DNA of 20,054 bases from the IMG/VR virus record IMGVR_UViG_3300042306_000794, positions 1 through 20,054 of that record; one strand, written 5' to 3'. The notes beneath the pieces are model-generated. The model did no database searches and was not told the origin of the DNA. It was given only the letters and a program-made list of their open reading frames with translations. Below are positions 1 through 20,054 of the stretch, piece after piece. The stretch is from a virus. The position numbers were made by a program, and so were the translations under genes. Position 1 is the stretch's first letter. Each line of letters opens with the position of its first letter.

Positions 1-3000
1 GTCGCAAACGTTGACCAATCTACTGTTGGTTTTGAATGTTCTGGTTTTACATCAGGAAATTGTGTAACGACTTGTACTGGATTTACAATTGTTGATTACA
101 CTATTGATTTTACTGGTTGCACAAACAACTCAAGTACAATATCATTCACATTTAATTCAAGTTCAGATATTTTAACACCTGATTTTAATTCATCATACGA
201 ATTATTTAATGGGACAACGTCAATAATTTCTAATGATTTGAAAAGTCAAATTTCTCAAGTAATGAGTACACCATCTAGTTCGGCTTACTCAATAAATTAT
301 TTTGGTGTAATTTCAGGTGGTACTTATGATTCATTATCAGCATATACTGCAAGTACAAATGTATTTGGTGTTGACAATGTAAGTTCAGATTTAGCTGATT
401 ATACAGCACCAATTAATGATACTTGGTATTATGCTACCTTTGACAATATTGGTGGTGGTGATTATTCAGGTTATTCATTTTATAGTACGATTACTGGTTT
501 AACTGAAACATCAGCAAAATCAAATTGTGCATCGTTTTATTCATATTCTGTAAGTTCTACAACAATTAGTGCAATAACAGGCTCAATAAATTATAATACA
601 AATGTGATTAGTGTTTGTTTACCATCTACAGCAACTACAGCAGACTACTCGGCAATGACTGTAACATTTAGTGCTTGTACAACTGAAAGTTTAAGTGGTG
701 TGACAAGTGGTGGTGTTGTACAATCAGCAATAACAAATAATGTAAATTTCAGTGCATTAACTAAATCTTATACAATTGTATCTGATGATTTAACCGCTAC
801 TTCGGCTTGGACTGTAAATGTTACAATAAATGACCCTTGTAATGCTTGTTCAGGTGGTAATACCGGTACAATACAATCAGGAACAACAACTTATTGTTAT
901 AGTGGTTCAGTAATGGGTAAAATATTTGTTTATACTGGTGATTCTTATACAAATTATGATGACTTAGTTATTGCAACACTTCGTTCAAGAGGTATTGCAA
1001 CATATAGTAATGATAATGGAGCTGTTTATGAAGTTCAAGACTTAAATGGGGTTTCACTTGATTGTACAGGTTCTTATTCAGCGGTAACTAAAAATCCTTT
1101 TTCAACATTTGGTGTAAATGTTACAAGTAAAGATGGTGACACTTATTTCTTTGAAACATCGTTCTCTAATTCTAATGTAAATTACATAGGAAAAGTTTTT
1201 GGGTATTCAAACTTTGCAAAACCAAGAACTGTAGTTCCTCTATTCTTAGAAGAAAGATTCCAAACTTTATTAAATTATGCTTATAGAAAAGGTTACATTA
1301 GAGGTTTAAGTTGTGACTTAACAGCATTACCTGAGTCAAGAAATGGAGATTCTACTTCAATTGGTTGGTATATGGAACAATATCAGTCACCTGAATCACC
1401 TTGGGTTGTTTCTGAATTAAGAGGTAATAAAGTATTTAACCTATTTAAATTTATAACAATAGCTGATGGTGAATCGGCAAATACTGAAGTTAAAATTTCA
1501 ATCGCTAATATTTCATTTAATAACGGTACATTTGATGTATTAGTAAGAGACTTTTTTGATAACGATTCAAATCCAGTTGTGATTGAAAAATTTACTAATT
1601 GTACAATGAATCCAAACGAAAATAGTTTCGTTGCTAAGAAAATAGGTACAAGTGATGGTGAATATCCAATGAATTCAAAATATGTTATGATTCAAATCAA
1701 TGAGGATGCACCAATTGATGCTCTTCCTTGTGGTTTTGAAGGTTATTCATTCAGAGAATATGCTGGGGTTAAATCACCATTCCCAATATACAAAACTAAG
1801 TATGATTTCCCTGGTGAAGTTATATACAATCCACCTTTTGGTCTAGCATCTGGTTCTGATGACGCAACAAGAAGTGCTGGAGATAATGTAAGAAGAACTT
1901 ATTTAGGTTTATCAGATACACTTGGATACGATATTGATTTCTTTGGTTATAAAGGTAAACAAGTACCATTAAGTGTTTGTGACGATACTTCTGGTGATAA
2001 TTGGGCATTCAGAACTCAAGGTTTCCATATGGATATAAACGCTTCAGGTATAACAGTGCCTAACATTTATTCTACAAGTGGTACACCTGCATTTCAAGTT
2101 GGTTCTGCACCATTTATTACAGACCCTGATAGTGAATCAAATCCATACTACAGATTATTTGCACGTAAATTTACTTTATTTGTAAATGGTGGTTTTGATG
2201 GATGGGACATCTATAGAGAATCAAGAACAAATACTGATAGATTTAGATTGGGTGGCGCGGGTTATTTAAAAGGTGCTTGTACATCAATAAGATACCCTAG
2301 TGCAACTGGTTTTGGAGCATTCAAACGTATTACAGTTGGTAATAATAATCAAGATTTTGCAAATACAGATTACTACGCTTACTTATTAGGGCAACAAACG
2401 TTTTCAAATCCTGAAGCTGTAAATATTAATGTGTTTACAACACCTGGTATTGATTATGTAAATCATTCAAATCTTGTTGAGTCTTCAATTGAAATGATTG
2501 AATTTGATAGAGCGGATTCGATTTATATCTGTACAACACCAGACTATAATATGTTTGTACCTGTAACTACAGATAATGCTGATTTGATTTACCCAACTGA
2601 AGCTGTTGATAACTTGGATGGTACTGGTATTGATTCTAACTATACAGCAACTTATTATCCTTGGGTTTTAACAAGAGATACGGTTAACAATACTCAATTG
2701 TATATCCCACCAACTGCTGAGGTTTGTAGAAATCTCGCATTGACAGATAACATTGCGTTCCCTTGGTTTGCTGCGGCAGGTTATACTCGTGGTATTGTAA
2801 ATGGTATCAAAGCAAGAAAGAAACTTACACAAGAAGACAGAGATACACTTTATAAAGGTAGAATCAATCCAATTGCAACATTCTCAGATGTGGGAACAGT
2901 TATTTGGGGTAACAAAACTCTTCAAGTTAGAGAATCTGCTTTAGATAGAATTAATGTAAGAAGACTTTTACTTCAAGCACGTAAATTAATATCTGCAGTT

Positions 3001-3255
3001 TCTGTAAGATTATTGTTTGAACAAAACGATGCTAAAGTTAGACAAGACTTCTTAGACGCAGTTAATCCTATTTTGGATGCGATTAGAAGAGACAGAGGTT
3101 TATATGATTTCCGTGTAACAGTTTCTTCTGACCCAGCTGATTTGGATAGAAATCAACTTACAGGTAAGATTTATATCAAACCAACCAAAGCATTGGAGTT
3201 CATTGATATCACATTCTATATCACTCCAACTGGTGCATCATTCGAAAATATCTAA
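1..3255 (+). CDS. Contractile tail sheath protein (gp18-like), 5'-truncated by the window edge
   Basis: The frame is open from base 1 to the TAA at 3253-3255, giving 1084 residues; the true start lies upstream, and the TTG at 238 is only an internal codon. The C-terminal ~170 residues carry the tail sheath signature: PWFAAAGYTRG (residue 921 on), then GRINPIATFSDVGTVIWG, an arginine-rich helix and a final beta segment ending FENI. This is the family of T4 gp18, which polymerises around the tail tube and contracts to drive injection. Sheath-core sequence appears to resume near residue 305 (GKIFVYTGDSYTNYDDL). The part before it is Ser/Thr/Asn/Cys-rich and beta-like. Residues ~179-280 (nt 535-840) look like a bacterial Ig-like domain, ending WTVNVTINDPC. 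The protein is much longer than T4 gp18 (about 660 residues), mainly because of these insertions. Sheath identity is certain; the Ig-like call is moderate. Confidence 0.93.
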   Translation, partial: VANVDQSTVGFECSGFTSGNCVTTCTGFTIVDYTIDFTGCTNNSSTISFTFNSSSDILTPDFNSSYELFNGTTSIISNDLKSQISQVMSTPSSSAYSINYFGVISGGTYDSLSAYTASTNVFGVDNVSSDLADYTAPINDTWYYATFDNIGGGDYSGYSFYSTITGLTETSAKSNCASFYSYSVSSTTISAITGSINYNTNVISVCLPSTATTADYSAMTVTFSACTTESLSGVTSGGVVQSAITNNVNFSALTKSYTIVSDDLTATSAWTVNVTINDPCNACSGGNTGTIQSGTTTYCYSGSVMGKIFVYTGDSYTNYDDLVIATLRSRGIATYSNDNGAVYEVQDLNGVSLDCTGSYSAVTKNPFSTFGVNVTSKDGDTYFFETSFSNSNVNYIGKVFGYSNFAKPRTVVPLFLEERFQTLLNYAYRKGYIRGLSCDLTALPESRNGDSTSIGWYMEQYQSPESPWVVSELRGNKVFNLFKFITIADGESANTEVKISIANISFNNGTFDVLVRDFFDNDSNPVVIEKFTNCTMNPNENSFVAKKIGTSDGEYPMNSKYVMIQINEDAPIDALPCGFEGYSFREYAGVKSPFPIYKTKYDFPGEVIYNPPFGLASGSDDATRSAGDNVRRTYLGLSDTLGYDIDFFGYKGKQVPLSVCDDTSGDNWAFRTQGFHMDINASGITVPNIYSTSGTPAFQVGSAPFITDPDSESNPYYRLFARKFTLFVNGGFDGWDIYRESRTNTDRFRLGGAGYLKGACTSIRYPSATGFGAFKRITVGNNNQDFANTDYYAYLLGQQTFSNPEAVNINVFTTPGIDYVNHSNLVESSIEMIEFDRADSIYICTTPDYNMFVPVTTDNADLIYPTEAVDNLDGTGIDSNYTATYYPWVLTRDTVNNTQLYIPPTAEVCRNLALTDNIAFPWFAAAGYTRGIVNGIKARKKLTQEDRDTLYKGRINPIATFSDVGTVIWGNKTLQVRESALDRINVRRLLLQARKLISAVSVRLLFEQNDAKVRQDFLDAVNPILDAIRRDRGLYDFRVTVSSDPADLDRNQLTGKIYIKPTKALEFIDITFYITPTGASFENI

Positions 3256-4313: not shown

Positions 4314-4802
4314 ATGGCTGATTTATTAATGAAAATGCCGGTTCCTTATGAACCAAAAAGACAGAATAGGTTTATTTTAAGGTTTCCATCATCTTTGGGT
4401 ATCAATGAGTGGTTTGTTGAGTCAGCAAAAAGACCATCAATCAAAGTTAACTCAGTACCTATTCCTTTCTTGAATACTTCAACTTACGTTGCGGGACGTT
4501 TTGAATGGAATGAAATTGGTATCAAATTAAGAGACCCTATTGGACCATCAGCATCCCAAGCAATTATGGAATGGATGCGTCTTTGTGCTGAGTCTGTAAC
4601 AGGTCGTATGGGTTATGCCGCAGGTTACAAGAAAAATGTTGACTTGGAAATGTTAGACCCAACTGGGGTTGTAGTAGAAAAATGGATATTAGAAGGTACT
4701 TGGATGACAAGTGCTGACTTTGGTTCTCTTGGTTATAGTACTGATGCTCTGGCAGATATCAGTGTTAACTTAAGAATGGACCGTTGTATATTAGTTTACT
4801 AA
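4314..4802 (+). CDS. Tail tube protein (T4 gp19-like)
   Basis: This 162-residue protein is almost the same length as T4 gp19 (163 residues) and has the family layout: a short N-terminal arm, then NRFILRFPSSLGI, a hydrophobic beta-rich middle with IGIKLRDPIGPSASQAI, and the C-terminal half with LEMLDPTGVVVEKWILEG and a final strand near NLRMDRCILVY. Hexameric rings of this protein stack to form the inner tube through which DNA passes, on a baseplate hub platform and inside the sheath. It starts at ATG in an A-rich leader with no Shine-Dalgarno sequence. It forms its own transcription unit, with a promoter-like motif upstream and a terminator downstream, which fits the need for many copies. The sheath gene upstream and tape measure gene downstream confirm the context. 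Confidence 0.95.
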   Translation: MADLLMKMPVPYEPKRQNRFILRFPSSLGINEWFVESAKRPSIKVNSVPIPFLNTSTYVAGRFEWNEIGIKLRDPIGPSASQAIMEWMRLCAESVTGRMGYAAGYKKNVDLEMLDPTGVVVEKWILEGTWMTSADFGSLGYSTDALADISVNLRMDRCILVY

Positions 4803-4885: not shown

Positions 4886-5638
4886 ATGAATATTGAAGAA
4901 ATTGGACAAGCTGATTTTAGTTTACCACACGATTTAGTACCACTGCCATCTCAAGGTATATTTTATAAGTCAAAAAAGAAAGCAATCAAGGTTGGTTATT
5001 TAACCGCAAGTGATGAAAACTTTTTAGCTAGTGGAAATCAAATGAACGGTGGTAGCATAATTTTAACTTTATTAAGAAATAAAATATATGAACCTGATTT
5101 AAGACCTGAAGATTTATTAGAAGGTGATATTGAAGCTATCTTAATTTTTTTAAGAAATACATCATTTGGACCTGAATATCAGGTGAGTTTGACTGACCCT
5201 ATGACAAATAAACAATTTAAAGCTGATTTGTTAATTGATGAATTAAGAATTAAACAAATTAATGAAAAACCTGATGAGAATGGTATGTTTATAACAACAT
5301 TACCAAAAACTGGTTTAGTTGTTAAATTAAAACCTTTGACTTATGGGGAAATTGTTGAATTGGATAAAATGGTAGAACAATATCCTGCAGGAAGAATTGC
5401 ACCTAAAGTCACTTGGAGATTAAATAAAATTGTTCAAGAAATAGATGGAAATTCAGATAGAACAAATATAGCACTCACAATTGAAAGTTTACCAATTGCT
5501 GACTCAAAATATATTAGAAATTTCATCAAAGACAATCAACCATCATTAGATTTAACCAAAACACTTCAAGCCCCTTCAGGAGAGAAAGTAACATTTGATG
5601 TTACTTTTGGGGTTGAATTTTTTCGTCCTTTCTTCTAA
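4886..5638 (+). CDS. gp26-like baseplate hub / tail assembly protein (T4_baseplate family)
   Basis: The 250-residue product opens with LPHDLVPLPSQGIFY, the LPS-x-G-x-x-Y start typical of the T4 gp26-type baseplate family, followed by a beta strand (KVGYLTASDENFL), a helix around IILTLLRNKIYEPDL, and LEGDIEAILIFLRNTSFGPEY. A second basic/beta part includes LPKTGLVVKLKPLTYGEIVEL. In T4, gp26 takes part in assembly of the central hub of the baseplate. T4 gp26 is about 208 residues. The frame stops abruptly after FGVEFFRPFF at a TAA (5636-5638), while a second frame, open from 5592 to 5777, continues with sequence of the kind found at the C-terminus or in the partner of such proteins. A T6 run at 5618-5623 lies in the overlap. 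The full product may therefore be about 297 residues after a +1 (or -2) frame change. Confidence 0.8.
   Translation: MNIEEIGQADFSLPHDLVPLPSQGIFYKSKKKAIKVGYLTASDENFLASGNQMNGGSIILTLLRNKIYEPDLRPEDLLEGDIEAILIFLRNTSFGPEYQVSLTDPMTNKQFKADLLIDELRIKQINEKPDENGMFITTLPKTGLVVKLKPLTYGEIVELDKMVEQYPAGRIAPKVTWRLNKIVQEIDGNSDRTNIALTIESLPIADSKYIRNFIKDNQPSLDLTKTLQAPSGEKVTFDVTFGVEFFRPFF
5592..5638 (+). promoter_or_regulatory. Candidate ribosomal frameshift window
   Basis: The downstream frame is open only after a TAA at 5589-5591 and the upstream frame ends at 5636-5638, so any switch must occur here. GAA TTT TTT CGT (5615-5626) is the best site: tRNA-Phe on TTT (5621-5623) can re-pair perfectly with TTC after a +1 slip, or with TTT after a -2 slip. 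No obvious stimulatory hairpin follows. A one-base sequencing error in the T6 run would give the same picture, as would two independent overlapping genes. Confidence 0.4.
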
Positions 5639-5825: not shown

Positions 5826-7721
5826 ATGGCTGATAAAGATAAAAATGTAGATGATATATTTAAAGCGTTTGGTGAATATGCTGGGATTATTTCAAAACAA
5901 TTTGCCACTAACTTTATGGCTTCTGAGATTAAAAAAACAATCGAAGAATATGAAACATCTGCGGTTAATGTTTTAAAATCATTTGGTACGGGTAGAGATA
6001 GAATTGTAGAATTAAAAGCCTCTATGGCTGATGCCGTAACAAGTGTTAAATTGTTAGGTGGTGAATTTAGTGATGTTGCAAAAATAGCAGGAGATATTGG
6101 AACTGCCCTTAATAGAAATATAATCTTAACAAGTCAATCATATGAAAAATTATACGCGACAGCCCAAGTAACTAATGTACAATATCAAACTTTAGCTAAT
6201 AGTTTTAAAGATGCGGGATTTTCCGTATATCAAATAGGTCAAAATATGGAAAAGGTTGTTAATACTGCGAGAGCTCAAGGTATTAATGCAAGAGAAGTGT
6301 CATCCCAAGTTGTACAAAATATGGGATTGATGGACAAATATAATTTTGCCGGTGGTGTTGAAGGTTTGGCAAAAATGGTTACACAAGCAACTAGTTTAAG
6401 AATCTCAGTTAGAGATATTGCTAATACAATGCAAAAAGCATTTGAACCTGAAAGTGCTATTGAAATGGCGGCATCTTTACAGAGATTAGGTATGGCTCAG
6501 GGTGATTTATTAGACCCACTTAGATTGATGGATTTAGCTCAAAATGACCCAGCTGAATTACAAAATCAAATTGCTGAAATGAGTAAAACTTTTGTTGAAT
6601 TCAATCAACAAACTAAATCATTTGAGATAGCACCAGGGGCTAAACGACAATTACAAGAGGTAGCCCAAGCATTAGGTATGCAACCTGAAGCGTTCGCCAA
6701 GATGGCTAAGTCGGCAGCTGAGATGGATGACAAGTTATCAAAAATTTCTTTTCCTAATACATTTACAGAAGACCAAAAGAAATTTGTCGCCAATATGGCT
6801 GAGATGGGTGAAGGTGGTGAATATATGTTGAGAGTTGATAACAAAGACTTGAAACTTGATGAGGCTATGAAATTATTTGAGGGAGATTCAGAAAAACTCA
6901 AAGAGTTTATGAAAGCTTCTGAAAAAAAATCAATGGAAGAATTAGCAAAAGAACAACTTACAACATCAGAAAGAATGGCTGCCGATATTAATGCTATTGC
7001 GAATAGAGTTGGAGCTGCCGCGGCAAGTTCAAAAACACAAGAACAAGCAAATCAAGCAAGTATTGAATTAAGTAGTACACTTCCAAAAATATTGAGTGGG
7101 GATAAACTTCAGGTTCAAGGTATGAGAGAAGCTGGGGATAAAATAGCCCAAGGATTAATAAAAGGTGCTCAAAGTGGAAATATGGCTGAATTTGGTCAAG
7201 CGGCAATAAAAGCGGGTGCTGATACTGAACAATATTTTACTGACGCACTTGGACAAGCGGTACAAGGTGGAAAAAAAGCCTTTGATGATTTAGGAAAATC
7301 AACAAATCCTTTAATACAAATTTTTGGTAAATTAGCTACTAATGTTGGTGCTGTTGTTGGTGAAAGTGAAAAATTGGGAAAAGACTTTTTTAAAACCTCA
7401 GAAACAATAAAAAGTTCAAGTACTAATTTAGAAAGTGTTGCAGCTCAAGCAAAAAATACATCAACAACTACAACCGCAACAGCAACAGCTACAACTGATG
7501 TTACAAAACAAGCAACAGGGACTTTAACGGCTCCTAAAGCTCCTGAATCAACAACAACTGAAATGAAATTTACTAATCCAATTGAAATAAAAGTTACATT
7601 GTCAGGATTCCCATCTGGTATGAAAGAAGAAGATATTAAGAAAATGATAGAAGAGGGTAAATTCAGTCAAGAAATTGTTAAAGCAATAAATGAAGCTGAA
7701 AAACAAAAAACTAAACAATAA
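5826..7721 (+). CDS. Tail tape measure protein
   Basis: This 631-residue protein is nearly all helical, Ala/Gln/Lys/Glu-rich, with long coiled stretches and no clear catalytic motif, as expected of a tape measure protein, which extends inside the tube and fixes its length. Its place after tube and gp26-like genes fits T4 gp29 (about 590 residues), so the tail should be about T4-sized. Residues ~1-130 hold two helical stretches; ~180-290 include QKAFEPESAIEMAASLQRLG and DLLDPLRLMDLAQNDPAE, recalling tape measure proteins of Bacteroidetes phages. Residues 545-557 form a Thr/Ala linker, followed by a small mixed domain (TNPIEIKVTLSGFPSGMKEEDI) and a charged helical end. No lysozyme or peptidase domain and no strong membrane segment are visible. 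It starts at ATG in an A-rich leader after a promoter-like motif. No terminator separates it from the next gene. Confidence 0.85.
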   Translation: MADKDKNVDDIFKAFGEYAGIISKQFATNFMASEIKKTIEEYETSAVNVLKSFGTGRDRIVELKASMADAVTSVKLLGGEFSDVAKIAGDIGTALNRNIILTSQSYEKLYATAQVTNVQYQTLANSFKDAGFSVYQIGQNMEKVVNTARAQGINAREVSSQVVQNMGLMDKYNFAGGVEGLAKMVTQATSLRISVRDIANTMQKAFEPESAIEMAASLQRLGMAQGDLLDPLRLMDLAQNDPAELQNQIAEMSKTFVEFNQQTKSFEIAPGAKRQLQEVAQALGMQPEAFAKMAKSAAEMDDKLSKISFPNTFTEDQKKFVANMAEMGEGGEYMLRVDNKDLKLDEAMKLFEGDSEKLKEFMKASEKKSMEELAKEQLTTSERMAADINAIANRVGAAAASSKTQEQANQASIELSSTLPKILSGDKLQVQGMREAGDKIAQGLIKGAQSGNMAEFGQAAIKAGADTEQYFTDALGQAVQGGKKAFDDLGKSTNPLIQIFGKLATNVGAVVGESEKLGKDFFKTSETIKSSSTNLESVAAQAKNTSTTTTATATATTDVTKQATGTLTAPKAPESTTTEMKFTNPIEIKVTLSGFPSGMKEEDIKKMIEEGKFSQEIVKAINEAEKQKTKQ

Positions 7722-7756: not shown

Positions 7757-10700
7757 ATGTCAGATAGTACTTTATCATTTAGTAATAGTGCAAGTTTTAG
7801 AAATAGTTTAATAAGTAGAAATTTAGCACCTTATAATATACCTGGGTCATATACACCACCATCAGGTTCGCAGAACTATGAATTTACAATTTCAAGTTTT
7901 AATGTTGTTGATTCACCTAATGATTTAATAGCAAGTAATCCATTTGTTAATGATAATGCTACATTGAATGAATATGGCCCCAACAATGGTTATCAACAAG
8001 TTATTGTTAATTATAATTTACCAGTTGACCCAAATCAAGGTGAATACAATCCAAACGATACTGTTTTGGATTTGGTTAATGAATTTTATATTGATGCGGC
8101 GTACATTGAAAATAGATTTGGGCCTATAGGTGGGTTTCAAAATATGGTTGTTATTGATAACATTCAAAACAATAACAAGTTATACACACCATATTGGGAC
8201 CCTCCTACATTTATACCCTCAACATATTCACCATATACAATATTATTATCTAATGACCCATCAGGTTCTAATGGACTATTATCTCAGGATTCATTTATTG
8301 CCAAACTAGGGGCACTTTCATTAAAAGATGCACTCCAAGCAAGGATTGATTCAGAAATCTTTCAGAGAAGTGTTGGGGTCGTTAATATTGATGCTTTATC
8401 AGACCCATTTGAGGTTGCATTATTGGCAACAGGAAAAGAACCATTAATCTATAAAGATTATAGAATAACTATACCTGAAAATCCATTAGTTGCTGGGGCT
8501 GAATTTATAACAAGATTGTCTGGTGCAATATTTCCATTATCAACAATCCCTGGTAATTATTTTTCTGATGTTGAACCAAGTGGTGGTTCGTCAAAACAAA
8601 TCAGTAATGCTTTAAATGTTGTTAATCAACTTACAGGTGGATTTTTAGGGCCAATATTAAACACTACAAGAAATCCTTCTGAATTATTCTTGGCTAATAC
8701 TGGAAATGGACAACGTTCAGTTTTATTCAGAAGTATTAGTTATAACCGATATCAACCATCTTATGATAAAAATTTTGGTGGTATTTTAGGTATTGCTCAA
8801 GGTGTTGTTAATTTAATTGCAAATGCAATTAATCCTGATAATGGTACTTTGGTTGGTGGATATTATGTTGGTTCAAGAAATGCTGAACCATCATCAATAA
8901 CTTCACCACCAAATCAATTACCTGTTGACCCATTTGGGAAACAAGTACAAACACCAGTTTATGGTCCTTCCGAACTTGGTATTTTATATGAAGGTAATCA
9001 GAGTCAACTTAACTTTGGTTTAGCGGGTAAATCATTTTCAGATGATGGTGGTATTGATGGTCAATTCGTTTGGACATCACCTAAATATAAAGGTGCTGCA
9101 GGATTTAAAGCAACACCTGGTGGTGGTAAAGGTTCTAAAGATGACGAATTCAAGGAAATTAGTTCTCAATATCAAAAGAATGAATCAACAAATATATCAT
9201 TTAAACAAAGTTCAATATTAGACCAAACTCAAAGATTAGTTGATTCTGCTGATAATGTTGCGGGAATATCAAAATTGAAACATGTTGGTAATGCAATTAA
9301 TCAAGTTAGTAAAGTTTTTAATGATGGATATAAAGAAATAACTAAAGGTTCAAAAGTATTATCGTATGTTGATAATACAACAGGACAAGAATCGGGTATA
9401 GAATATTGTAGAGTGTTTGCTAAAGATACTCCGTATTATACATATGTTGATTTACAAAAAACTGATGGTATTACAACATCAGGAAGAAGATTTACAAACT
9501 CAGTATTTGATAATACATACAATCTTAACATTGCGCCAATTAAAGGCGAAGGTTCTACTAATTTAAAATTAGATGCTAAAGGTAATTTAGTCGCTAAAAA
9601 ATATATGTTTTCAATTGAAAACCTTGCTTGGAGAACATCAAGTAGACCTGGTTTTACTTGGGATGATTTACCTTCTTGTGAGAAAGGTCCTAATGGTGGT
9701 AGAGTTATGTGGTTTCCACCATATGATTTAAAGTTCTCAGATTCAAGTTCTGCGAGTTTTAATGCAACAAGTTTCCTTGGAAGACCTGAACCTATTTACA
9801 CATATAAAGATACAAGTAGAAAAGGTAATATATCTTGGAAGATAATTGTAGATAATCCATCAATAACAAATTTATTGGTAGATAAACAATTAAAAGGTAT
9901 CGATAATCCAAAGATAAATTCAATTATGGAATCTTTCTTTGCTGGTTGTGTAAAATATGATATATATGAATTAGCTAAAAAATTTAACACAATACCATTA
10001 TCTGATTTATACACTTATCAAGAAGTGTTGAATAATCCAAGATTAACTGGTGAGGAATATAAAAAAGTTGTTGAGGAAATACCTAAACAACCTGATGATA
10101 AAAATACAACAGGAGGTCAAACTGGTAAAAACGTTCAACCAGAAACACCAACAGACCCAAGAGTGGAGGAAATAAAAACAGACTTTAATGGGTTAGCTTT
10201 TTATTTTTTTGATAATATACCAGGTCCTAACTTTGGTGCAGTATCAAATCAATCCTATCAAGATACTTATGCTGCATATACAGCACCAACTTTTATTACA
10301 CAATATCAAACAAATAGTAATAGTACATTTTCACCTGATTCTTCTTTTTGTAAAAAGAATGGTACAATAACTACTTCTGATGGGGCAACTATTACTAATA
10401 GTGAATATTGTAGTAGGGCAACTAAAACAACGGATTTTTTTAATACTATCATTAAACCAAACTATGAAAAATTTGCAACTAAGGAAGGTAATTTTGTAAC
10501 CAAAATATCACAATTATTATCTGAAAGTCCTGATAACAAAATAACATTAAATATGATTGGTTCGGCTTCAGCTCCTGGTAGTGTTGAATACAATGTTGAT
10601 TTATCAAAAAGGAGAGTTGACTCAGTACTTAAATTTTTTGAAACCTATAAAATTGGTGATGCTAATTTAAAAAAATATATTGACAATAAACAATTCATAG

Positions 10701-12850
10701 TTAAACCACCATCAATATCAGGAGAAACTATATCAATTCCTAAAACACCTAATAATGAATCTGGTTTTGCGGTTAATTGTACTGAAAATATTACAGGTGG
10801 GACAGGGTTTGTTACACAATCTTCTCAAATTTATTCAGTAAATGCAATGGCTTGCAGAAGAGTTAGAATAGAAAATATTGAAGTAACAATACCAATAACA
10901 ACAACTACAACAACACAAGCTCCAGCCAAAAATGTTGAACCTAAAGTTACTTTAAAACCAATACCGAGAATTCAACCAACAGTTGATATTCAGAAAAAAT
11001 TAAAAGAAGGTATTGGTAAAAGAATATTGAGAAATTTATTAACTGAATGTGATTATTTTGAATTGATTGAAAAAGAAAACCCAATGGTTTATTCTTCATT
11101 CAAAGAAAAAATAAAATACTTTAATCCAACATTCCACTCAATGACACCAGAAGGACTTAATGCGAGATTAACGTTCTTGAATCAATGTGTACGTCCTGGT
11201 GAAACAATACCCATTATTGGAACAGATGGTAAACCTAAATATAATGATTCTTTAAATACTGCATTTGGAGCACCACCAATCCTAGTATTAAGAATTGGGG
11301 ACTTTTATCACACCAAGATAGTACCTAATAGTGTGTCATTTTCATATGACCCAATAGTATATGATATGAATCCTGAAGGTATCGGTATCCAACCTATGAT
11401 TGTGAGTGTTACTTTGGACTTTAATATTATTGGAGGTATGGGTCTTGCAAAACCTATTGAGGAATTACAAAACGCTCTTTCATTTAACTATTATGCAAAT
11501 ACAGAAGTTTATGATGAAAGAGCTATAGCGACAGAAGACACTTCAACTATAGATAAAGAAATTGTAGAAGCTTTAATTTTAAATCAACCAAGTGTTACAA
11601 CTAATCAGGTTACAAATATACAACCAAATCCTGGTGGTAATACAATTGGAAATATTATTACAAATATTCCTGTAACAGGTGGTCAGACTGGTGAAACATC
11701 TTATAGTACTATTATGGACCAATTATTAACTGAAACTAAAAATTATATGAATTTAGTAACTAATAAATTGGAAAGTATTAATAATTCATACAATCTTGGT
11801 ATTGTAAAACTATTAGATTCAAATAAAAATTATACTAAAGGTAAATTAAATCTTGGTACTTTAACACCTAACAACATAGTGATATATGGTAAACCAGTAT
11901 TTGATGAAACTCTTAAAAATGCTTTTGATTTAGTATTAAAAAGTATTGATGATGGAAGTAATGTAATTATAGATAAATTAAAAAAAATTTATAATACTGA
12001 ACAAACACCAATACCATTAATTAAAACTAATTTAAAAAATTATATACAAGATTTACAATCAACATTCAGTAATGGCATTACAACAACTATGCAAGAGTTA
12101 GTTACAGGACAAGAAAACTATGTTCAAGTTATTAGAAAATTAAACGTAGTTGTTGACAAATTAGATGGTAAAATATTAGATACTGGTAAACCAAGAATGT
12201 ATGGTCTTAGTGGAATAACATCAGGTAACACAGATAGTTACAAACAATTAGTTAGTGATTACGCTAAACTGATTGACGTTTTAATGAATACAGGTACAGG
12301 ATTTAATTCTTTATTAGAAACAATTGGTAAAGATATTGCTTTTGGATTTAATATTGCAAATGGGGCAGCACCTAACCAAACAAACTATAAAGATGGTAAT
12401 TTTGTATTAGCAACAAACCCTGAAATAATTGATACTAAAGTTAATAAATTATTTTTTATGATTATGTCAAGAATTATTACCGACAAGAATAAAAAGAAAC
12501 AATTTATTGATGCTATCATAAAAGGAGATGAATTAAAAAAATGGAAAACCCCAGTAAATCTATCAAATAAATTTGAAAAGATAGTTAATGATTTAGATAG
12601 TGATTATTCTAAAGAATTAAAAGCTGAAGAAAAAATATTTACTAATTTAAGAAAAGATAAATTATTTAAAGATTTAATTGATGGTTTGGAGACTAAAATG
12701 TATAAACCAAAAGTTAACCCAAGAAAATTTGAATATACCACTGTTGGTGACTTAACAGCACAAGAAAGTAAAATTTTGAATTTATATAATGGTCAAAATG
12801 GTAGTGAAGCAGATAAAACTAATTTTGATAATAGAATAACTTTTAATTAA
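7757..12850 (+). CDS. Large baseplate/tail structural protein with an internal OmpA-like domain
   Basis: This 1697-residue protein follows the tape measure gene, where T4 encodes tail tube and baseplate initiators (gp48, gp54). It has recognisable blocks. Residues ~1-610 are Asn/Ser/Pro-rich, beta-like. At ~625-700 a structural core includes GRPEPIYTYKDTSRKGNISW (675-694). Residues ~888-1045 look like an OmpA C-terminal domain: MIGSASAPGSVEYN (933-946), LSKRRVDSVLKFF (949-961) and a late ACRRVRIENIEV. A Thr6 linker (1048-1053) follows. Residues ~1126-1250 carry FHSMTPEGLNARLTFLNQC and ELQNALSFNYYANTEVYD, motifs I associate with baseplate proteins of related contractile phages. Residues ~1300-1697 are helical and Lys-rich. 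OmpA-like folds bind peptidoglycan non-covalently, so the insertion could anchor the baseplate to the cell wall; this is inferred. Structural role is likely, exact T4 counterpart uncertain. One base separates its stop from the next ATG. Confidence 0.75.
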   Translation: MSDSTLSFSNSASFRNSLISRNLAPYNIPGSYTPPSGSQNYEFTISSFNVVDSPNDLIASNPFVNDNATLNEYGPNNGYQQVIVNYNLPVDPNQGEYNPNDTVLDLVNEFYIDAAYIENRFGPIGGFQNMVVIDNIQNNNKLYTPYWDPPTFIPSTYSPYTILLSNDPSGSNGLLSQDSFIAKLGALSLKDALQARIDSEIFQRSVGVVNIDALSDPFEVALLATGKEPLIYKDYRITIPENPLVAGAEFITRLSGAIFPLSTIPGNYFSDVEPSGGSSKQISNALNVVNQLTGGFLGPILNTTRNPSELFLANTGNGQRSVLFRSISYNRYQPSYDKNFGGILGIAQGVVNLIANAINPDNGTLVGGYYVGSRNAEPSSITSPPNQLPVDPFGKQVQTPVYGPSELGILYEGNQSQLNFGLAGKSFSDDGGIDGQFVWTSPKYKGAAGFKATPGGGKGSKDDEFKEISSQYQKNESTNISFKQSSILDQTQRLVDSADNVAGISKLKHVGNAINQVSKVFNDGYKEITKGSKVLSYVDNTTGQESGIEYCRVFAKDTPYYTYVDLQKTDGITTSGRRFTNSVFDNTYNLNIAPIKGEGSTNLKLDAKGNLVAKKYMFSIENLAWRTSSRPGFTWDDLPSCEKGPNGGRVMWFPPYDLKFSDSSSASFNATSFLGRPEPIYTYKDTSRKGNISWKIIVDNPSITNLLVDKQLKGIDNPKINSIMESFFAGCVKYDIYELAKKFNTIPLSDLYTYQEVLNNPRLTGEEYKKVVEEIPKQPDDKNTTGGQTGKNVQPETPTDPRVEEIKTDFNGLAFYFFDNIPGPNFGAVSNQSYQDTYAAYTAPTFITQYQTNSNSTFSPDSSFCKKNGTITTSDGATITNSEYCSRATKTTDFFNTIIKPNYEKFATKEGNFVTKISQLLSESPDNKITLNMIGSASAPGSVEYNVDLSKRRVDSVLKFFETYKIGDANLKKYIDNKQFIVKPPSISGETISIPKTPNNESGFAVNCTENITGGTGFVTQSSQIYSVNAMACRRVRIENIEVTIPITTTTTTQAPAKNVEPKVTLKPIPRIQPTVDIQKKLKEGIGKRILRNLLTECDYFELIEKENPMVYSSFKEKIKYFNPTFHSMTPEGLNARLTFLNQCVRPGETIPIIGTDGKPKYNDSLNTAFGAPPILVLRIGDFYHTKIVPNSVSFSYDPIVYDMNPEGIGIQPMIVSVTLDFNIIGGMGLAKPIEELQNALSFNYYANTEVYDERAIATEDTSTIDKEIVEALILNQPSVTTNQVTNIQPNPGGNTIGNIITNIPVTGGQTGETSYSTIMDQLLTETKNYMNLVTNKLESINNSYNLGIVKLLDSNKNYTKGKLNLGTLTPNNIVIYGKPVFDETLKNAFDLVLKSIDDGSNVIIDKLKKIYNTEQTPIPLIKTNLKNYIQDLQSTFSNGITTTMQELVTGQENYVQVIRKLNVVVDKLDGKILDTGKPRMYGLSGITSGNTDSYKQLVSDYAKLIDVLMNTGTGFNSLLETIGKDIAFGFNIANGAAPNQTNYKDGNFVLATNPEIIDTKVNKLFFMIMSRIITDKNKKKQFIDAIIKGDELKKWKTPVNLSNKFEKIVNDLDSDYSKELKAEEKIFTNLRKDKLFKDLIDGLETKMYKPKVNPRKFEYTTVGDLTAQESKILNLYNGQNGSEADKTNFDNRITFN

Positions 12851-12851
12851 A

Positions 12852-13175
12852 ATGGCAAGACAAAACTACAATAGATATAAGGACTTTGTTATTAATGGTG
12901 AACAAACAATTGTTCCCTATATAACTCTTCCATCTAAAAGTACAGATAAAAAATATATCTATAAGATTGGTATGTCTAGGATGGATAAGGTATCCCAACA
13001 ATACTATGGTTCTCCTTTATTTGGATGGTTAATTATGCAAGCAAATCCACAATTTAGTGGTAATGAATGGAGGATTCCTGATGGTTCTATATTGACAATT
13101 CCATATCCTTTAGTAGCTTCATTACAAGACTATAAAAATCAATTGGACGAGTATCTTTTCTATTATGGTAGATAA
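12852..13175 (+). CDS. LysM/gp53-like small baseplate protein
   Basis: This 107-residue protein has the pattern of the LysM-like tail proteins (T4 gp53, P2 gpX): a beta strand and helix with MSRMDKVSQQYYGSPLFGW (residues 41-59), a conserved ANPQ turn, then RIPDGSILTIPYPL (74-87), where a strand closes the fold. Residues 1-30 are a basic arm (MARQNYNRYKDFVINGEQ) and the last ~20 form a helix ending FYYGR. In contractile tails these small proteins sit at the baseplate and bind hub or wedge partners rather than glycan. It begins 1 nt after the upstream stop and overlaps the next gene by 11 nt, so the three are probably translationally coupled. No own promoter is visible. Family assignment is good; choosing between wedge gp53 and hub gpX types is not possible from sequence. 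Confidence 0.8.
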   Translation: MARQNYNRYKDFVINGEQTIVPYITLPSKSTDKKYIYKIGMSRMDKVSQQYYGSPLFGWLIMQANPQFSGNEWRIPDGSILTIPYPLVASLQDYKNQLDEYLFYYGR

Positions 13176-16100
13176 ACAAGAAAACATTTTGGTTGAATTC
13201 GATTATAATAACATTATTATAATTGACCCAAACAAAATTATAGATGAAAATGGTAAGGCAAAACAAAGATTAGTACAACACGAAAATCTCGTGATGTATG
13301 CTAATTTGGAATGTGATGTATTACCAAGAACTAAATTGGCAATAGGCGTTGCCCCAAATGATGCAATTGAAACGATTTCAGTTGCAAGAATTAACTTTTT
13401 GAAACCCGGAGGTAAGACATTCTTGGATACTTCTTGGACTGATGAAATTACAGGTAAAGGAACTGTGACAGGTGAGGGTGTTAATCAACCCAAACAAACA
13501 TCAATTAAAAACCCAAATAAAGATAACGATTTTTACATACGTCAAACAATTCAATCAGGAGGAAAACCTGGTTCTGTTGACAATGGGTTATTAGGTATAA
13601 CATCAATTAATATTAGACAAACTACAGCTTTTATGCCAACAATATCAATTGAATTGGTTGACATTAAAGGTAGGGCTTTGTTTGAATCTGGTGACAATTC
13701 ACCTTATGCGGCATTTTTTAATTTACCATACCCATTATTTTATTTAACAATAAAGGGTTATTATGGTAAAGCTGTAAGATTGGGATTAATGTTACAGAAA
13801 TTTAATGCAAGATTCCAACCAGATTCAGGTAACTTTAAGATTGATTTGATGTTCTATACATACAAGTACACAATATTAAGTGAGTTGAGTATGGCAGCAC
13901 TTATTGCTGCCCCACATATGTATAAAACAAGAATATCAACACAATCAAGTAGTGGCGGACCATCAACTTTAGTTAAAGTAAATGAATCAATAACTGAACG
14001 TGGATACCAAAAGATTAAAGAATTATATAGTGAATATAAATCAAAAGGTTTAATTCCTGATGATTTGCCAGAATTAACTTTGGTACAACTTAAAGAAAGA
14101 TTAGATACTTTCATCAAAGATAAATTAGACACATTTACTAAACAAAATTTAGAACCTATTTCAGGCTGTGATGACTATCAAAAAAATCTAAAAGAATATC
14201 AAGGTGCTATATATTATTATACAGCAGGAAGAATATCTTGGTTCAATAAGTACTTGGATAAAAATAACTTTTTTATTCTTAACAATAATACACAAACTAA
14301 AGTTTATACGTTTAAAAAAGAAATTAATACTCCTGATTTAAGACAAGCCGCAGTTACTGAATTAAATGGAATTGTTCAAGAATTTAATAAAAAATTGAAT
14401 AGCAATCCTGTTGTTGGTGAAAAAGGAAGTTATAAGATTGATGGTAAAACATTTAATTCATTAGTACCAAATCCAATCACAACAAATGTATTTAACACAA
14501 CAATTGATTATGCGAATATTAATAAAAAACAAACTTACATACAAAGAAAAGGTTCTGAGCCAAATAATGACCAACTAGCTCAATTTGAAAAAGAATTAGT
14601 TGAAACTTTTATTGTTAATACAAGCCAAGTAACATTAAAAGATGGAACAAAATTACCTGTAACTAATTTCTATGTATTTGAAGGTCCTAATACATTTATT
14701 GATTTAACTGATAAAATGGGTAGAGACCTTAAAGTCATCAGAGAACAAATTGAACAAGAACTAACGTTAGCCTTAACCAATTTATTAGAAAACAAAAGTG
14801 ATGGAATTGGATTTGTTCCTAACATTAGAAATGTTTTAGCCGTTGTATTTGCAAGTGGTGAAGCTTTCTTAAGAATGATGGATGATGTTCATACCAAAGC
14901 TTGGGATTTAAGTGATAATCCTATTAGAAAACAAATAGTACTTAATACACAGACAGCAGGTGCTTCTCAAGAAACATTTAATAATGGGGATATTCAAAAT
15001 ACACCAATTTATCCTTGGCCTCAATATATTGAAGAAACTACAGGTGAAAATGGACACGAAAAATATGAATTACGTTATCCTGGTGATTCTTCGGTAATAT
15101 CAAAAACCAAAGGATATTTGTTGGATGTATGGCCTGAGATTGAATTTGTTGAAGAATTTATCAAGGGATTTACAGAACGAAAGAGTCCACCAGCAGAAAA
15201 TAAAAATGGTAATGAGGTTACTGAAGTTAAAAGAGTTAGTTTTAATGCAATTGAATTTCCAATTGGAAATTATGTTTTCTCAAATAAAGAAGAGGTTAAA
15301 TTCTTTTTTGAAATTTACGAGAGAATGTTGTACATATCAAACTATTCTAAATTATCAAGAGTTTCTGATGCACCTAGTTTTATAGACCCAATAGTTAAAA
15401 TAATTTCTGAATGTGAAAAAATTAACATCAAAAATGGTCTTAGTGATGGTGCTCCATTTATTAAAGATAAACTTAAAAATTATTTAATAAGTTCTGGTAA
15501 CTTTTTACAATTATTGAGACAATTCTCAAATAATGGTAGGGGGGAAAGTTGGCAAAATTATATAAGAGGTATTTTTAACACAAAATATATTAAAAATACT
15601 ATTAATAATGCAAGTTTTGAATTCTTGGATTCAAGAATATTAAATGAGAAATTTACTCAACCTGCAATTACATTAACTGATGAAACTAAAATACAAGAAT
15701 TTATAAGTTCATCAACAAATTCTAAATTTGATTTTACTGATACTTTCCCATTTACAAATAAAAATTGGGTTAAAAAGTATTTAGCACAATCATCTACTAT
15801 TGATACACCAGAATTAGCATTTAAAACACCTGAAGTACTTAAGTACAATCAGACTAATAAAATTATTGCTAACTTTTTACCAACAGCAAATAATACTTTT
15901 GCCAAACCATTCGCAGTATTTGTACAAGAAAATGGAACTGAACCAAATCCAATTCCAAATAATGCTCAAAACTCACAAGTTACAAGTAGTCAATTAATAG
16001 ATTTTTATCAAAGACCATCTGATAAACAAATTATAACTGAAGGTAGAATTAGATACGAAAATTATAGCGGGTCAGTTAGTTTTGAACAAACAACATCAAT

Positions 16101-19100
16101 ACTGAATACACCATATTTTGTTAACTCAATCCAAATTGGACAGAAAAATTTTAGAAATTATGATAAACATCCATTTGTTGCTTCAGCTTATTTGTTTTTA
16201 AATAGTTTACCATTAATAACACTTAAAGAAAAGTACACAAAATATGAAAATGGAAAAACCATTTTTATGGATTATATATTTGCAACATTGAAAAAATTTG
16301 GTGCAATACATAAAGTTCCATATGCTTGGATTCTTAAAATGGGTTCGGTTTGGTATCGATATAAAAAATATGTTGAAGAAAACGTGGATATTTTAGATGA
16401 ATGTTGGAAAAGTTTTGATAGCGTTCCAAACTATGACCCCATTACATCTGCGGCAACTAAAACATATAATCTAACTATCAATGGTTCACCAATAGATTTA
16501 GTTTTGGAAGATAATAACGTAATTGGACTTGAAACTTCTTCATTAATTAATGTTGGATTTTATCCAAAACTAATTAATGACTTTAATGTTTTCTTGAATG
16601 GTTATGAAATAATTCAGTCTAATTCTCAAGTTAATGGTACTTGTAGTGTAAGTGGAACAACATTAACTATAACACAAGTTAATTCAAATACATTACAACC
16701 AGGTTACATTTTAGCGGGAATTAATTTACTTCCAAATACAACAATAATTTCTCAAATTGGTGGTACACCAGGTGGTGTAGGAACTTATGAAATAACTCCG
16801 ACACAAACTGGTTCTACGGCATTATTTTCCGTAACTAATGCAACAAGTGTTGGTTATACAAGTTCTAATATACAAAGTGCTTTAGATTTTTCAGGGTTAT
16901 CAATGTATTATGTAAGTAATGCTATTATTAACGAACCTGAAGGTTTTGACCCAAATAATCCTTTGAGAGATTTAAGAATTATACCTTGGAGTTTATCTGT
17001 TGATACAAACAACAAAAACTTTATGTATATTCTACCATCAAGTGGTACTTTATTTAATCAGACAAAAAATGAATGTTTCAATAATAACAATAAATTAATC
17101 CAAGAAGTAACTGGTAACACATCAGTACATAATGGGGCTGTAAGATTATTTTGGACAGCACCAAACTATGGTTATTTTGACAACACTAGAATTACAAAAG
17201 TTAAACCTAATGAATATCTTAAAAGAGTTTTAACGGCTGACACGTATCAAGATATATTCACTTTAACTGGTTTTGGGGATGAATATTCTAAGATTGATGA
17301 AATATTTTCAGTATTTGAAAAAAGTGTATTAGATGGTTTTGAAAAAGAATTTTTAAAATTCTCAAAATCAATATATGATTATGAAGATGATTCAACATCT
17401 AATTTAACTCTTACAACAAGTCAAACATCAACAACAACAACCACTACAACATCTTCAAGTGGTCAAGATACAAGTACAGAAATTACATCAGCATTTAATG
17501 ATATTACTAAATCTTTAAAGGAAATAGGTGATACTGTAATAGATAAGAGAAATAGGAATTTCCAACAATTAATGAGGACATTATTATCTGTACCAAAAAT
17601 TACAGGTAATACTGGTTATGAATATGTAAAAAAAGTTCAATCATCTCAATTTAGTACAATCAAATCAGTATTATCTGATTTTTTGAACTATGACGTAACA
17701 TTTAAATATGGAAATCCTTCTGGGTTTGACAGAAAACTATTTAACACATTTTCAACATTACCATTTACAGACCCATATGAATGGAGTAAATATACAAATT
17801 CAACTCCAAATGCACTACCTAAATTAAATGGTACAACTACTTTAGCCAGTTCTCAAATAATTTATTCAGGTGCTTGGGCAACATTACAAACTTATGTTGG
17901 ATTTTCAGAAATACCTGAATTAAAATATAGTAATAACGGTTCATATATCACTGACTTCTTTATTGATTTAAATGTTGCATTTACACCTGAAAATATAGAA
18001 CTTTTTGCTCCAATAATTAAGATTTATGCGACTCAGAAACTAAATCAATTTCAGTCTAATTATATACCACCACAACAACCACAATTACAACCATCATCTA
18101 ATGTTGTTGCAACAGCATTCTTGAAAAGCGGTGGAACTATTAATGTTGAAAAATTAGGTCCTAAATTTAGAACAACATATTATAATAGTGATAATGTGTT
18201 ATTATTTGAAGGTGCGTATACTTTCACATTTAGTAATGATGTATATACCACTTCAGGTTCGGAGATTTATTATACGGCATTAGTTAATGAAACAATTATT
18301 GGGATATTTGGGAGTACAACAACTAATCCAACTGACCCTCAATATATAACAACATTTGATAGGGTAACACCAACAACATATAATCCTGAACCTAGTTCTT
18401 CAAATAGGAATAATTCATCGGCTTTTTATGAAGCTATGGACAATTATTTAAACAAAATAGATAATTTTCAAAATAAAATTATAGATTCAACAATGATTGA
18501 TGTTAGAAATTCATTGGATTCAATAACAATCAATGCTGAAGAAAGAGACCAAAGTGTTTTACAAGGTGAACCTCAACCAAAGTTGGAAATTTGGGAAAGT
18601 TTTAAAGCGTTAAATGACAAATGGATAGCTGGTGGTGATTTTAAAACAAAAACATTATTTGAGGATGTATTGTTATTGGATAGAGCAAGCAGAAATATTG
18701 GTGATAAAGTTTTAGTTGACATATATAAACTCAAAGATAGATTACAAACTGTTATTGAAAAAGAAACCAATAAAACAACGATGTTGATTTTTGTTCAAAA
18801 CATATTAGTTGAGAACAATTTTGTGGTAATGAATTTACCATCTTATGTTAATTTTTATGGAGTTCAAGACGCAGTTAAAAATCCAAAACCAAAAGTTGAA
18901 GATACTTTGGATTTTGCAAATACTATGTTTGGAACTTTCTTAAATGTTGATTATAGGGAATCGTCAGCAAAAATGGTTTGTTTTTATGGTGGTAAACCAA
19001 GTGAGCAATTGGATTTAAAAGATAATGTTGATTATCGTAAAAGAAGTGATGCCTTTGAACTTAGAAGAGCAAGTGATAATCCATTGGTTGAAAATCTAAT

Positions 19101-20054
19101 AGGTAAAAATGATTGGGATAAATCTAATAAAGTTGTTGGTTTTAATGTTGATGTTGGCCCTCAAAACCAAGGTATTTTTATTAGTTTTAATGTTGGACAA
19201 GATGCTGGTAAAGCAACTGCGGAGTCATTAGAAGCTACAAATATGTTGGCAAATCAAGGTAATAACAGAGCGGGTTCATCACAAAGCATTTCATTATATA
19301 ATTTATATAAAAATAGAAGTTATAGTTGTGAAGTTGAGATGATGGGAAATGCTTTGATTCAACCTACAATGTATTTCAATTTGAGAAACGTACCAATGTT
19401 TAGTGGACCTTATATGATTTTGGAAGTTAACCATAGTATTAGACCTGGTATGTTTTCAACTAGATTTAGTGGTATAAGACAACCAACTGCAGCATTACCA
19501 AAGATTGATAACTTCTTACAATCTTTAAAACAGAATTTAGTTCAAACTTTAATTGAAAAAAATAAACAAGAGAAAGATGCAGCACAAAAAGCGGCAACAA
19601 GTGGTGATACGGATACAAAAAGAACTAGTTCACCAATTAGACTTAACTTGGTTAATACTACTCAAAATTGTACGGCCTCAACTAAATATAATACATATGT
19701 AGCGTCAGCTCCTAGTAGTAGTTTTGAAACTGTTCAAAATGTAATAAATCAAATTGTGACTAAAACAGATAGTGTCGTATTACGTTATTGTATATTTGCC
19801 AGAATTTACTTTTTTACGGGTAACGAAACATTAATTGAGGCTTATGCTAACAATTATTCTCTTACAAATTTGATTGAGGATTGGGGACCATCTGAAAATT
19901 ATTTTTCAAAATCAAAAAAATACTATTGTACACCTGATAATTTTGCTTTAGTTTATTTTGATAGTTTGAATGACCATTTGAATTTTATGTTTGAAAGATG
20001 GAGAAATTTCCCAACCGCATTAAAATTACAAAATAATGTTTCAGATATAACAAA
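13165..20054 (+). CDS. Giant baseplate hub-like protein, 3'-truncated by the window edge
   Basis: From ATG 13165 the frame stays open to the last base, at least 2296 residues, and reads as protein throughout. The N-terminal ~260 residues (SINIRQTTAFMPTISIELVD, then FYLTIKGYYGKAVRLGLM) look like the beta domain of gp27-type hub proteins. Residues ~2053-2112 look like the other half of that fold: YSCEVEMMGNALIQP, NLRNVPMFSGPYMILEVNHS, TRFSGIRQP. Between them lie ~1800 residues: a conserved-looking helical block (HPFVASAYLFLNSLPL, 1002-1017; HKVPYAWILKMGSVWYRYK, about 1049-1067), a G/T-rich beta insertion at ~1158-1224, and a Thr/Ser linker at 1421-1432. It overlaps the preceding gene by 11 nt (ATG 13165, previous stop 13173-13175), implying coupled translation. 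Hub role is inferred from these blocks and position; the middle is unassigned. The C-terminus is outside the window. Confidence 0.78.
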   Translation, partial: MVDKQENILVEFDYNNIIIIDPNKIIDENGKAKQRLVQHENLVMYANLECDVLPRTKLAIGVAPNDAIETISVARINFLKPGGKTFLDTSWTDEITGKGTVTGEGVNQPKQTSIKNPNKDNDFYIRQTIQSGGKPGSVDNGLLGITSINIRQTTAFMPTISIELVDIKGRALFESGDNSPYAAFFNLPYPLFYLTIKGYYGKAVRLGLMLQKFNARFQPDSGNFKIDLMFYTYKYTILSELSMAALIAAPHMYKTRISTQSSSGGPSTLVKVNESITERGYQKIKELYSEYKSKGLIPDDLPELTLVQLKERLDTFIKDKLDTFTKQNLEPISGCDDYQKNLKEYQGAIYYYTAGRISWFNKYLDKNNFFILNNNTQTKVYTFKKEINTPDLRQAAVTELNGIVQEFNKKLNSNPVVGEKGSYKIDGKTFNSLVPNPITTNVFNTTIDYANINKKQTYIQRKGSEPNNDQLAQFEKELVETFIVNTSQVTLKDGTKLPVTNFYVFEGPNTFIDLTDKMGRDLKVIREQIEQELTLALTNLLENKSDGIGFVPNIRNVLAVVFASGEAFLRMMDDVHTKAWDLSDNPIRKQIVLNTQTAGASQETFNNGDIQNTPIYPWPQYIEETTGENGHEKYELRYPGDSSVISKTKGYLLDVWPEIEFVEEFIKGFTERKSPPAENKNGNEVTEVKRVSFNAIEFPIGNYVFSNKEEVKFFFEIYERMLYISNYSKLSRVSDAPSFIDPIVKIISECEKINIKNGLSDGAPFIKDKLKNYLISSGNFLQLLRQFSNNGRGESWQNYIRGIFNTKYIKNTINNASFEFLDSRILNEKFTQPAITLTDETKIQEFISSSTNSKFDFTDTFPFTNKNWVKKYLAQSSTIDTPELAFKTPEVLKYNQTNKIIANFLPTANNTFAKPFAVFVQENGTEPNPIPNNAQNSQVTSSQLIDFYQRPSDKQIITEGRIRYENYSGSVSFEQTTSILNTPYFVNSIQIGQKNFRNYDKHPFVASAYLFLNSLPLITLKEKYTKYENGKTIFMDYIFATLKKFGAIHKVPYAWILKMGSVWYRYKKYVEENVDILDECWKSFDSVPNYDPITSAATKTYNLTINGSPIDLVLEDNNVIGLETSSLINVGFYPKLINDFNVFLNGYEIIQSNSQVNGTCSVSGTTLTITQVNSNTLQPGYILAGINLLPNTTIISQIGGTPGGVGTYEITPTQTGSTALFSVTNATSVGYTSSNIQSALDFSGLSMYYVSNAIINEPEGFDPNNPLRDLRIIPWSLSVDTNNKNFMYILPSSGTLFNQTKNECFNNNNKLIQEVTGNTSVHNGAVRLFWTAPNYGYFDNTRITKVKPNEYLKRVLTADTYQDIFTLTGFGDEYSKIDEIFSVFEKSVLDGFEKEFLKFSKSIYDYEDDSTSNLTLTTSQTSTTTTTTTSSSGQDTSTEITSAFNDITKSLKEIGDTVIDKRNRNFQQLMRTLLSVPKITGNTGYEYVKKVQSSQFSTIKSVLSDFLNYDVTFKYGNPSGFDRKLFNTFSTLPFTDPYEWSKYTNSTPNALPKLNGTTTLASSQIIYSGAWATLQTYVGFSEIPELKYSNNGSYITDFFIDLNVAFTPENIELFAPIIKIYATQKLNQFQSNYIPPQQPQLQPSSNVVATAFLKSGGTINVEKLGPKFRTTYYNSDNVLLFEGAYTFTFSNDVYTTSGSEIYYTALVNETIIGIFGSTTTNPTDPQYITTFDRVTPTTYNPEPSSSNRNNSSAFYEAMDNYLNKIDNFQNKIIDSTMIDVRNSLDSITINAEERDQSVLQGEPQPKLEIWESFKALNDKWIAGGDFKTKTLFEDVLLLDRASRNIGDKVLVDIYKLKDRLQTVIEKETNKTTMLIFVQNILVENNFVVMNLPSYVNFYGVQDAVKNPKPKVEDTLDFANTMFGTFLNVDYRESSAKMVCFYGGKPSEQLDLKDNVDYRKRSDAFELRRASDNPLVENLIGKNDWDKSNKVVGFNVDVGPQNQGIFISFNVGQDAGKATAESLEATNMLANQGNNRAGSSQSISLYNLYKNRSYSCEVEMMGNALIQPTMYFNLRNVPMFSGPYMILEVNHSIRPGMFSTRFSGIRQPTAALPKIDNFLQSLKQNLVQTLIEKNKQEKDAAQKAATSGDTDTKRTSSPIRLNLVNTTQNCTASTKYNTYVASAPSSSFETVQNVINQIVTKTDSVVLRYCIFARIYFFTGNETLIEAYANNYSLTNLIEDWGPSENYFSKSKKYYCTPDNFALVYFDSLNDHLNFMFERWRNFPTALKLQNNVSDIT

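Follow-up and report, generated by a model that had tools for sequence, protein, structure and literature searches.

A predicted OmpA-like domain with an altered binding pocket in a probable tail-tube initiator of uncultured aquatic phages

How a contractile tail keeps its hold in the cell envelope after firing is poorly known, and a phage tail protein containing a domain of the OmpA type raises the question of whether the tail itself may grip the cell wall. The window, i.e. the whole stretch of 20,054 bases analyzed here (IMGVR_UViG_3300042306_000794), carries a contractile-tail gene cluster with the order sheath, tube, hub subunit, probable tape measure, 1697-aa protein, gp53-like protein and giant protein. 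The tail genes and domain features of the window described below lie on the plus strand. The sheath protein (1..3255; Pfam, PHROGs), which is cut by the window edge, is followed by a gp19-like tail tube protein (4314..4802; PHROGs E 1.1e-24), a baseplate hub subunit of the T4_baseplate family (4886..5638; over the Pfam cut-off, and matched in PHROGs), and a probable tape measure protein (5826..7721) that is assigned by its position in the gene order alone and has no family match in Pfam or PHROGs. Downstream of the 1697-aa protein (7757..12850) lie a gp53-like baseplate wedge subunit (12852..13175; PHROGs E 5.8e-5) and a giant tail protein (13165..20052), a hub by its place in the gene order, also cut by the window edge, a homologue of which matches the tail protein family phrog_52.

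Concerning the first genes of the cluster, the N-terminal ~800 residues of the sheath protein (window 1-2600) form a long, Ser/Thr-rich part without family match, the sheath-family matches being confined to its last ~220-280 residues. Between sheath and tube, a 277-aa protein (window 3331-4164) starts with MKILVTENQLKSILE and then contains FDWDDNVL, a lookalike of the HAD phosphatase motif.

We found at least 593 stretches in IMG/VR that encode relatives of the 1697-aa protein, from which 80 relatives were taken and 43 non-redundant ones aligned. Uncultured aquatic phages that share such a protein with an OmpA-like module make up a large family. In one homologue (L071:1446-6440), a lone TAA in frame (3912-3914) interrupts the coding sequence, which may reflect an error in the contig or a broken gene.

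The open reading frame at 7757-12850 is present and encodes 1697 aa, nucleotides 10418-10894 correspond to residues 888-1046, as the preliminary description had it, and the motifs that it read there are exact: G935-S-A-S938-A-P-G941, Y945-N-V-D-L-S-K-R-R953-V-D-S-V and R1034-R-V-R-I-E-N-I1041. The OmpA-like region that it had called stands, but not its left edge: the true start lies ~84 residues earlier, at ~residue 804, strand 1 (F815-Y-F817) and the helices that follow it having been missed. From profile matches, the AlphaFold model and fold matches, we place the domain at residues 804-1044 (10166..10888). Its strand 1 motif F815-Y816-F817 (10199..10207) is conserved in nearly all of 121 homologues, and at the other end Cys1033, found in 115 of the 121, directly precedes the closing strand R1034-R-V-R-I-E-N-I1041 seen in the model (10853..10879). 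Cys1008 (10778..10780), which is a Cys in 121/121 homologues, is a possible partner of Cys1033, and a bond between the two may exist.

Taken alone, the window protein stays below the PF00691 cut-off of 27.2 bits, with 18.6 bits for the whole protein (E 0.0024) and 21.8 bits for the domain (E 0.00025), whereas 36 of the 43 homologues match this family at E<=0.01, the best at E 3.7e-6, and one relative exceeds the cut-off with 28.3 bits. Each of the 43 has a match (E<=0.05) to one or more NCBIfam models of the OmpA family, and their joint profile retrieves 33 PDB sequences at E<=1 (best 1.4e-5), nearly all OmpA-like, including Pal, OmpA and PorE, and one clearly not. The domain was also folded by itself, since low-confidence flanks had swamped a Foldseek search with a 718-residue model. 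The AlphaFold model of residues 796-1056 (pLDDT 92.2, pTM 0.90) displays an OmpA-like fold, and the Foldseek and VIA-align lists consist almost throughout of OmpA-family chains, with PorE at the top in Foldseek, and Pal (Z 9.0; 2.7 A, 122 residues) and Acinetobacter baumannii OmpA with bound peptide (3td5; Z 8.2; 2.8 A, 119 residues) among the VIA-align matches. Because these Z values are moderate, the OmpA-like claim rests on fold, motif and profile jointly. The score of the single window sequence below the Pfam cut-off, together with Foldseek E-values of only about 0.005 to 0.1 and modest TM-scores, might speak for a chance resemblance and a domain that is not OmpA-like, but the agreement of fold and signature motif and the matches of the homologues in Pfam, NCBIfam and the PDB make this very improbable. 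On the predicted structure, residues ~804-1044 are an OmpA-like domain, and the resemblance is more than chance.

What kind of protein carries this domain? Its location inside a baseplate protein, as originally described, can be kept and sharpened by gene order and flank homology to a probable tail-tube initiator. The succession of tape measure, protein and gp53/hub is the same in the window, where the tape measure is recognized solely by its position, in Flavobacterium phage immuto and in Bacillus phage SP-15. Moreover, when the regions on the two sides of the module, residues 612-705 (9590..9871) and 1110-1262 (11084..11542), are spliced together, they align in hhalign with one tube-like domain, the C-terminal domain of immuto gp35-type proteins (96.9%, E 1.5e-10, 139 columns). 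Most of the signal is held by the first half, which alone reaches 96.0% (E 4.5e-9) against the same profile. The second half is weak by itself (11.6%, E 0.0026) and is aligned in order only when spliced behind the first; when the halves are swapped it is no longer aligned, so that the match is order-dependent. The immuto-type profile also finds SP15_048 of phage SP-15 (E 8.5e-6), a protein that is over the Pfam CIS_tube cut-off, while the spliced tube-like domain has no direct match in Pfam (including CIS_tube, PF19266) or in the PDB (including solved initiators). Pro/Thr-rich linkers join the OmpA-like module to the tube-like domain. Gene order and sequence comparisons together indicate that the 1697-aa protein is probably a tail-tube initiator whose tube-like domain is interrupted by the OmpA module, which would then be carried by the tube rather than by the outer baseplate.

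The ligand site of OmpA-like domains is well defined in TagL, where diaminopimelate (DAP) is contacted by Asp486, Asn494, Leu497 and Arg501, and where mutating Asn494, Leu497 or Arg501 abolishes the interaction with the cell wall (PMC8253398). By motif alignment, the counterparts in the phage protein are Ser938, Asn946, Leu949 and Arg953. The last three belong to the pocket motif Y945-N946-x-x-L949-S950-x-R952-R953 (10589..10615), in which Asn946, Leu949, Ser950 and Arg953 are invariant in 78/78 sequences; column identity over the domain averages 42% in the 43 aligned homologues. Ser938 (10568..10570) takes the position of the DAP-contacting Asp in a gap-free profile alignment with GHTD proteins, and this site is a Ser in all 112 distinct pocket-bearing domains. 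The preliminary description had doubted that the Asp/Arg pair was complete, and justly so: the Arg is kept as R953 and the Asp is gone. With the Asp of the GHTD motif absent, we class the domain as OmpA-like but do not count it among the canonical DAP binders. That the pocket stays fixed while the domain around it drifts suggests a constant ligand, for which peptidoglycan would be the natural candidate.

In 31 acidobacterial OmpA domains, which were the best Pfam matches and hence biased to canonical forms, the site is Asp in 25 and Cys in 6 (one apparent V being a shifted GHTD match), so Asp loss occurs in cells too. Some OmpA proteins of Bacteroidota may have Ser there, within a GYASPEG motif. 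The fixed exchange of Ser for Asp in the phage family amounts to a natural experiment on ligand recognition by OmpA. A changed Asp implies a changed ligand, and the pocket might bind, for instance, a small molecule or a host protein of the cell surface or the periplasm, all the more as the OmpA-like YfiB and Pal also bind proteins, in solved complexes that are among the structure matches. Nothing positive points to any particular ligand of this kind, however, and a host protein would vary between hosts whereas the pocket is constant; we consider such a partner unlikely.

The pocket is not kept throughout the family. Applying a rule of our own to 121 aligned homologues, we found a full pocket in 96, a partial one in nine and none in 16. 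In a quick, unrooted tree built from the flanks only, 13 of the rows without pocket and three with a partial pocket form one group of 16 (SH-aLRT 99), the other three partial-pocket rows being placed outside it. Strand 1 and Cys1008 are retained in this group, and so is the domain, at a length of about 180-200 residues. We read this pattern as loss, because the pocket matches that of cellular OmpA, and the erosion of the pocket in one clade that keeps the domain suggests that wall binding is dispensable in some of these phages.

Alternatively, the module may no longer bind the wall and instead pack between tube, hub and wedges, with part of another tail protein lodged in its former pocket. The replacement of the ligand Asp by Ser throughout, the clade that keeps the domain without the pocket, and the LysM of the Mu gp43 tube initiator, which is regarded as structural (PMC11915804), all favor such a reuse, and the last two in particular make a purely structural role a close rival that we regard as quite possible. 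Against it, the main clade shows no variation at the pocket residues Asn, Leu, Ser and Arg even as the remaining domain drifts, and a ligand that is itself a phage protein would be expected to drift along with the domain.

Other phage proteins also contain OmpA-like stretches. A tblastn search of INPHARED with the protein, its conserved second half and the OmpA domain returned no relative of the family and one weak match, in the 636-kb uncultured huge phage LR756504.1, and a plasmid search gave weak OmpA matches only. LR756504.1 encodes a stand-alone 502-aa protein (L084:9668-11176) with two OmpA-like stretches over the Pfam cut-off, the first of which reads GHTSSPAKPEYN and has a Ser at the Asp site. 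A stretch of the canonical GHTD type is found in this phage too, as part of a 719-aa protein (L211). In the phage record G003, where the pocket of the tube initiator is eroded, a separate gene codes for a 475-aa OmpA-like protein (L209:3632-5056, minus strand) with SSAS and LSEARAATV motifs. The latter starts with MKKIVRLTENDLVAIIQKVISE, which resembles a capsid-targeting propeptide, and the start of the 277-aa protein of the window, given above, resembles it in turn.

The explanation that we prefer, with a probability of roughly 0.45, is that the tube base grips peptidoglycan with an altered ligand recognition. A large contractile-tailed phage, itself uncultured, would use the protein as its tail-tube initiator, and, with the module inserted in a loop of the tube-like domain, copies of the module would ring the tube base. 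Contraction of the sheath would drive the tube and its initiator through the outer membrane and bring the modules into the periplasm, where the pocket (N946, L949, S950, R953, with Ser938 for Asp) may grip a carboxylate-bearing group of the stem peptide, and this grip would steady the tube in the wall while DNA passes. More specifically, and somewhat more tentatively, the modules may bind peptidoglycan after contraction, the exchange of Ser for Asp fitting them to a stem peptide that is altered or modified. By analogy, anchoring is favored by the requirement for the TagL counterparts of Asn, Leu and Arg in wall binding (PMC8253398) and by the ability of tube initiators to carry wall-binding folds, namely LysM (PMC11915804); the absence of the ligand Asp in every homologue, the eroded-pocket clade and the LysM of Mu gp43, regarded as structural, speak against it. 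In three relatives of the window, we could not find a peptidoglycan hydrolase in the giant protein encoded downstream, which leaves a grip-and-cut pair unsupported. The hub protein of phage immuto (L205:28029-30842) contains a VanY D,D-carboxypeptidase domain, of which there is none in the three window relatives. A wall-binding fold at the tube base makes the question of tail hold testable with a single purified domain.

Concerning the host, the nearest named phages by sheath and tube are from Microcystis and Flavobacterium. At the start codons no Shine-Dalgarno motif is obvious, a common situation in Bacteroidota. The two observations together tentatively suggest a Bacteroidota host. Moraphages are aquatic jumbo phages with predicted Bacteroidota hosts (PMC12619734), and they may form one lineage with the phage of the window; OmpA is not mentioned in that paper. 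A genome scan yielded a Holophagaceae contig of chimeric appearance and, within a Christensenella MAG, a short phage contig; we discarded both as host clues. OmpA-like phage proteins are already annotated (BFVD) or present in unnamed families (phrog_7897), and in open-licence full texts we found no description of a phage tail protein that contains an OmpA-like domain. As far as our searches reach, what is new is the combination of an OmpA-like fold with a tube initiator, the place at which the module is inserted, and the fixed Ser.

The closest counterparts by gene position are immuto gp35 (716 aa) and SP15_048 of SP-15 (168 aa), which share a homologous tube-like domain with the 1697-aa protein but in neither of which an OmpA module was detected. 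With the OmpA-like peptidoglycan-binding domains (PF00691) of Pal, A. baumannii OmpA and PorE, a protein of the type IX secretion system, the phage domain has in common its predicted fold, the NxxLSxRR pocket and the closing RRVxI strand. The phage domain differs from them in having Ser for the ligand Asp, a non-conserved Ala after the Arg and a longer insert after strand 1, and in being part of a tail protein without visible membrane anchor. TagL of the type VI secretion system likewise places an OmpA-like domain in a protein of a contractile machine, and three of its four DAP-contact residues match; however, TagL anchors the membrane complex of the firing cell, whereas the phage module belongs to an incoming tail and has Ser in place of Asp486. 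Finally, LysM folds are attached to the tube initiators of phages Mu (gp43) and Milano (gp25) and of R2 pyocin (PMC11915804), which are thus similar in bearing a wall-binding fold on a tube initiator, but there the LysM sits in a separate helix-rich domain, whereas the phage module described here is OmpA-like and inserted within the tube-like domain itself.
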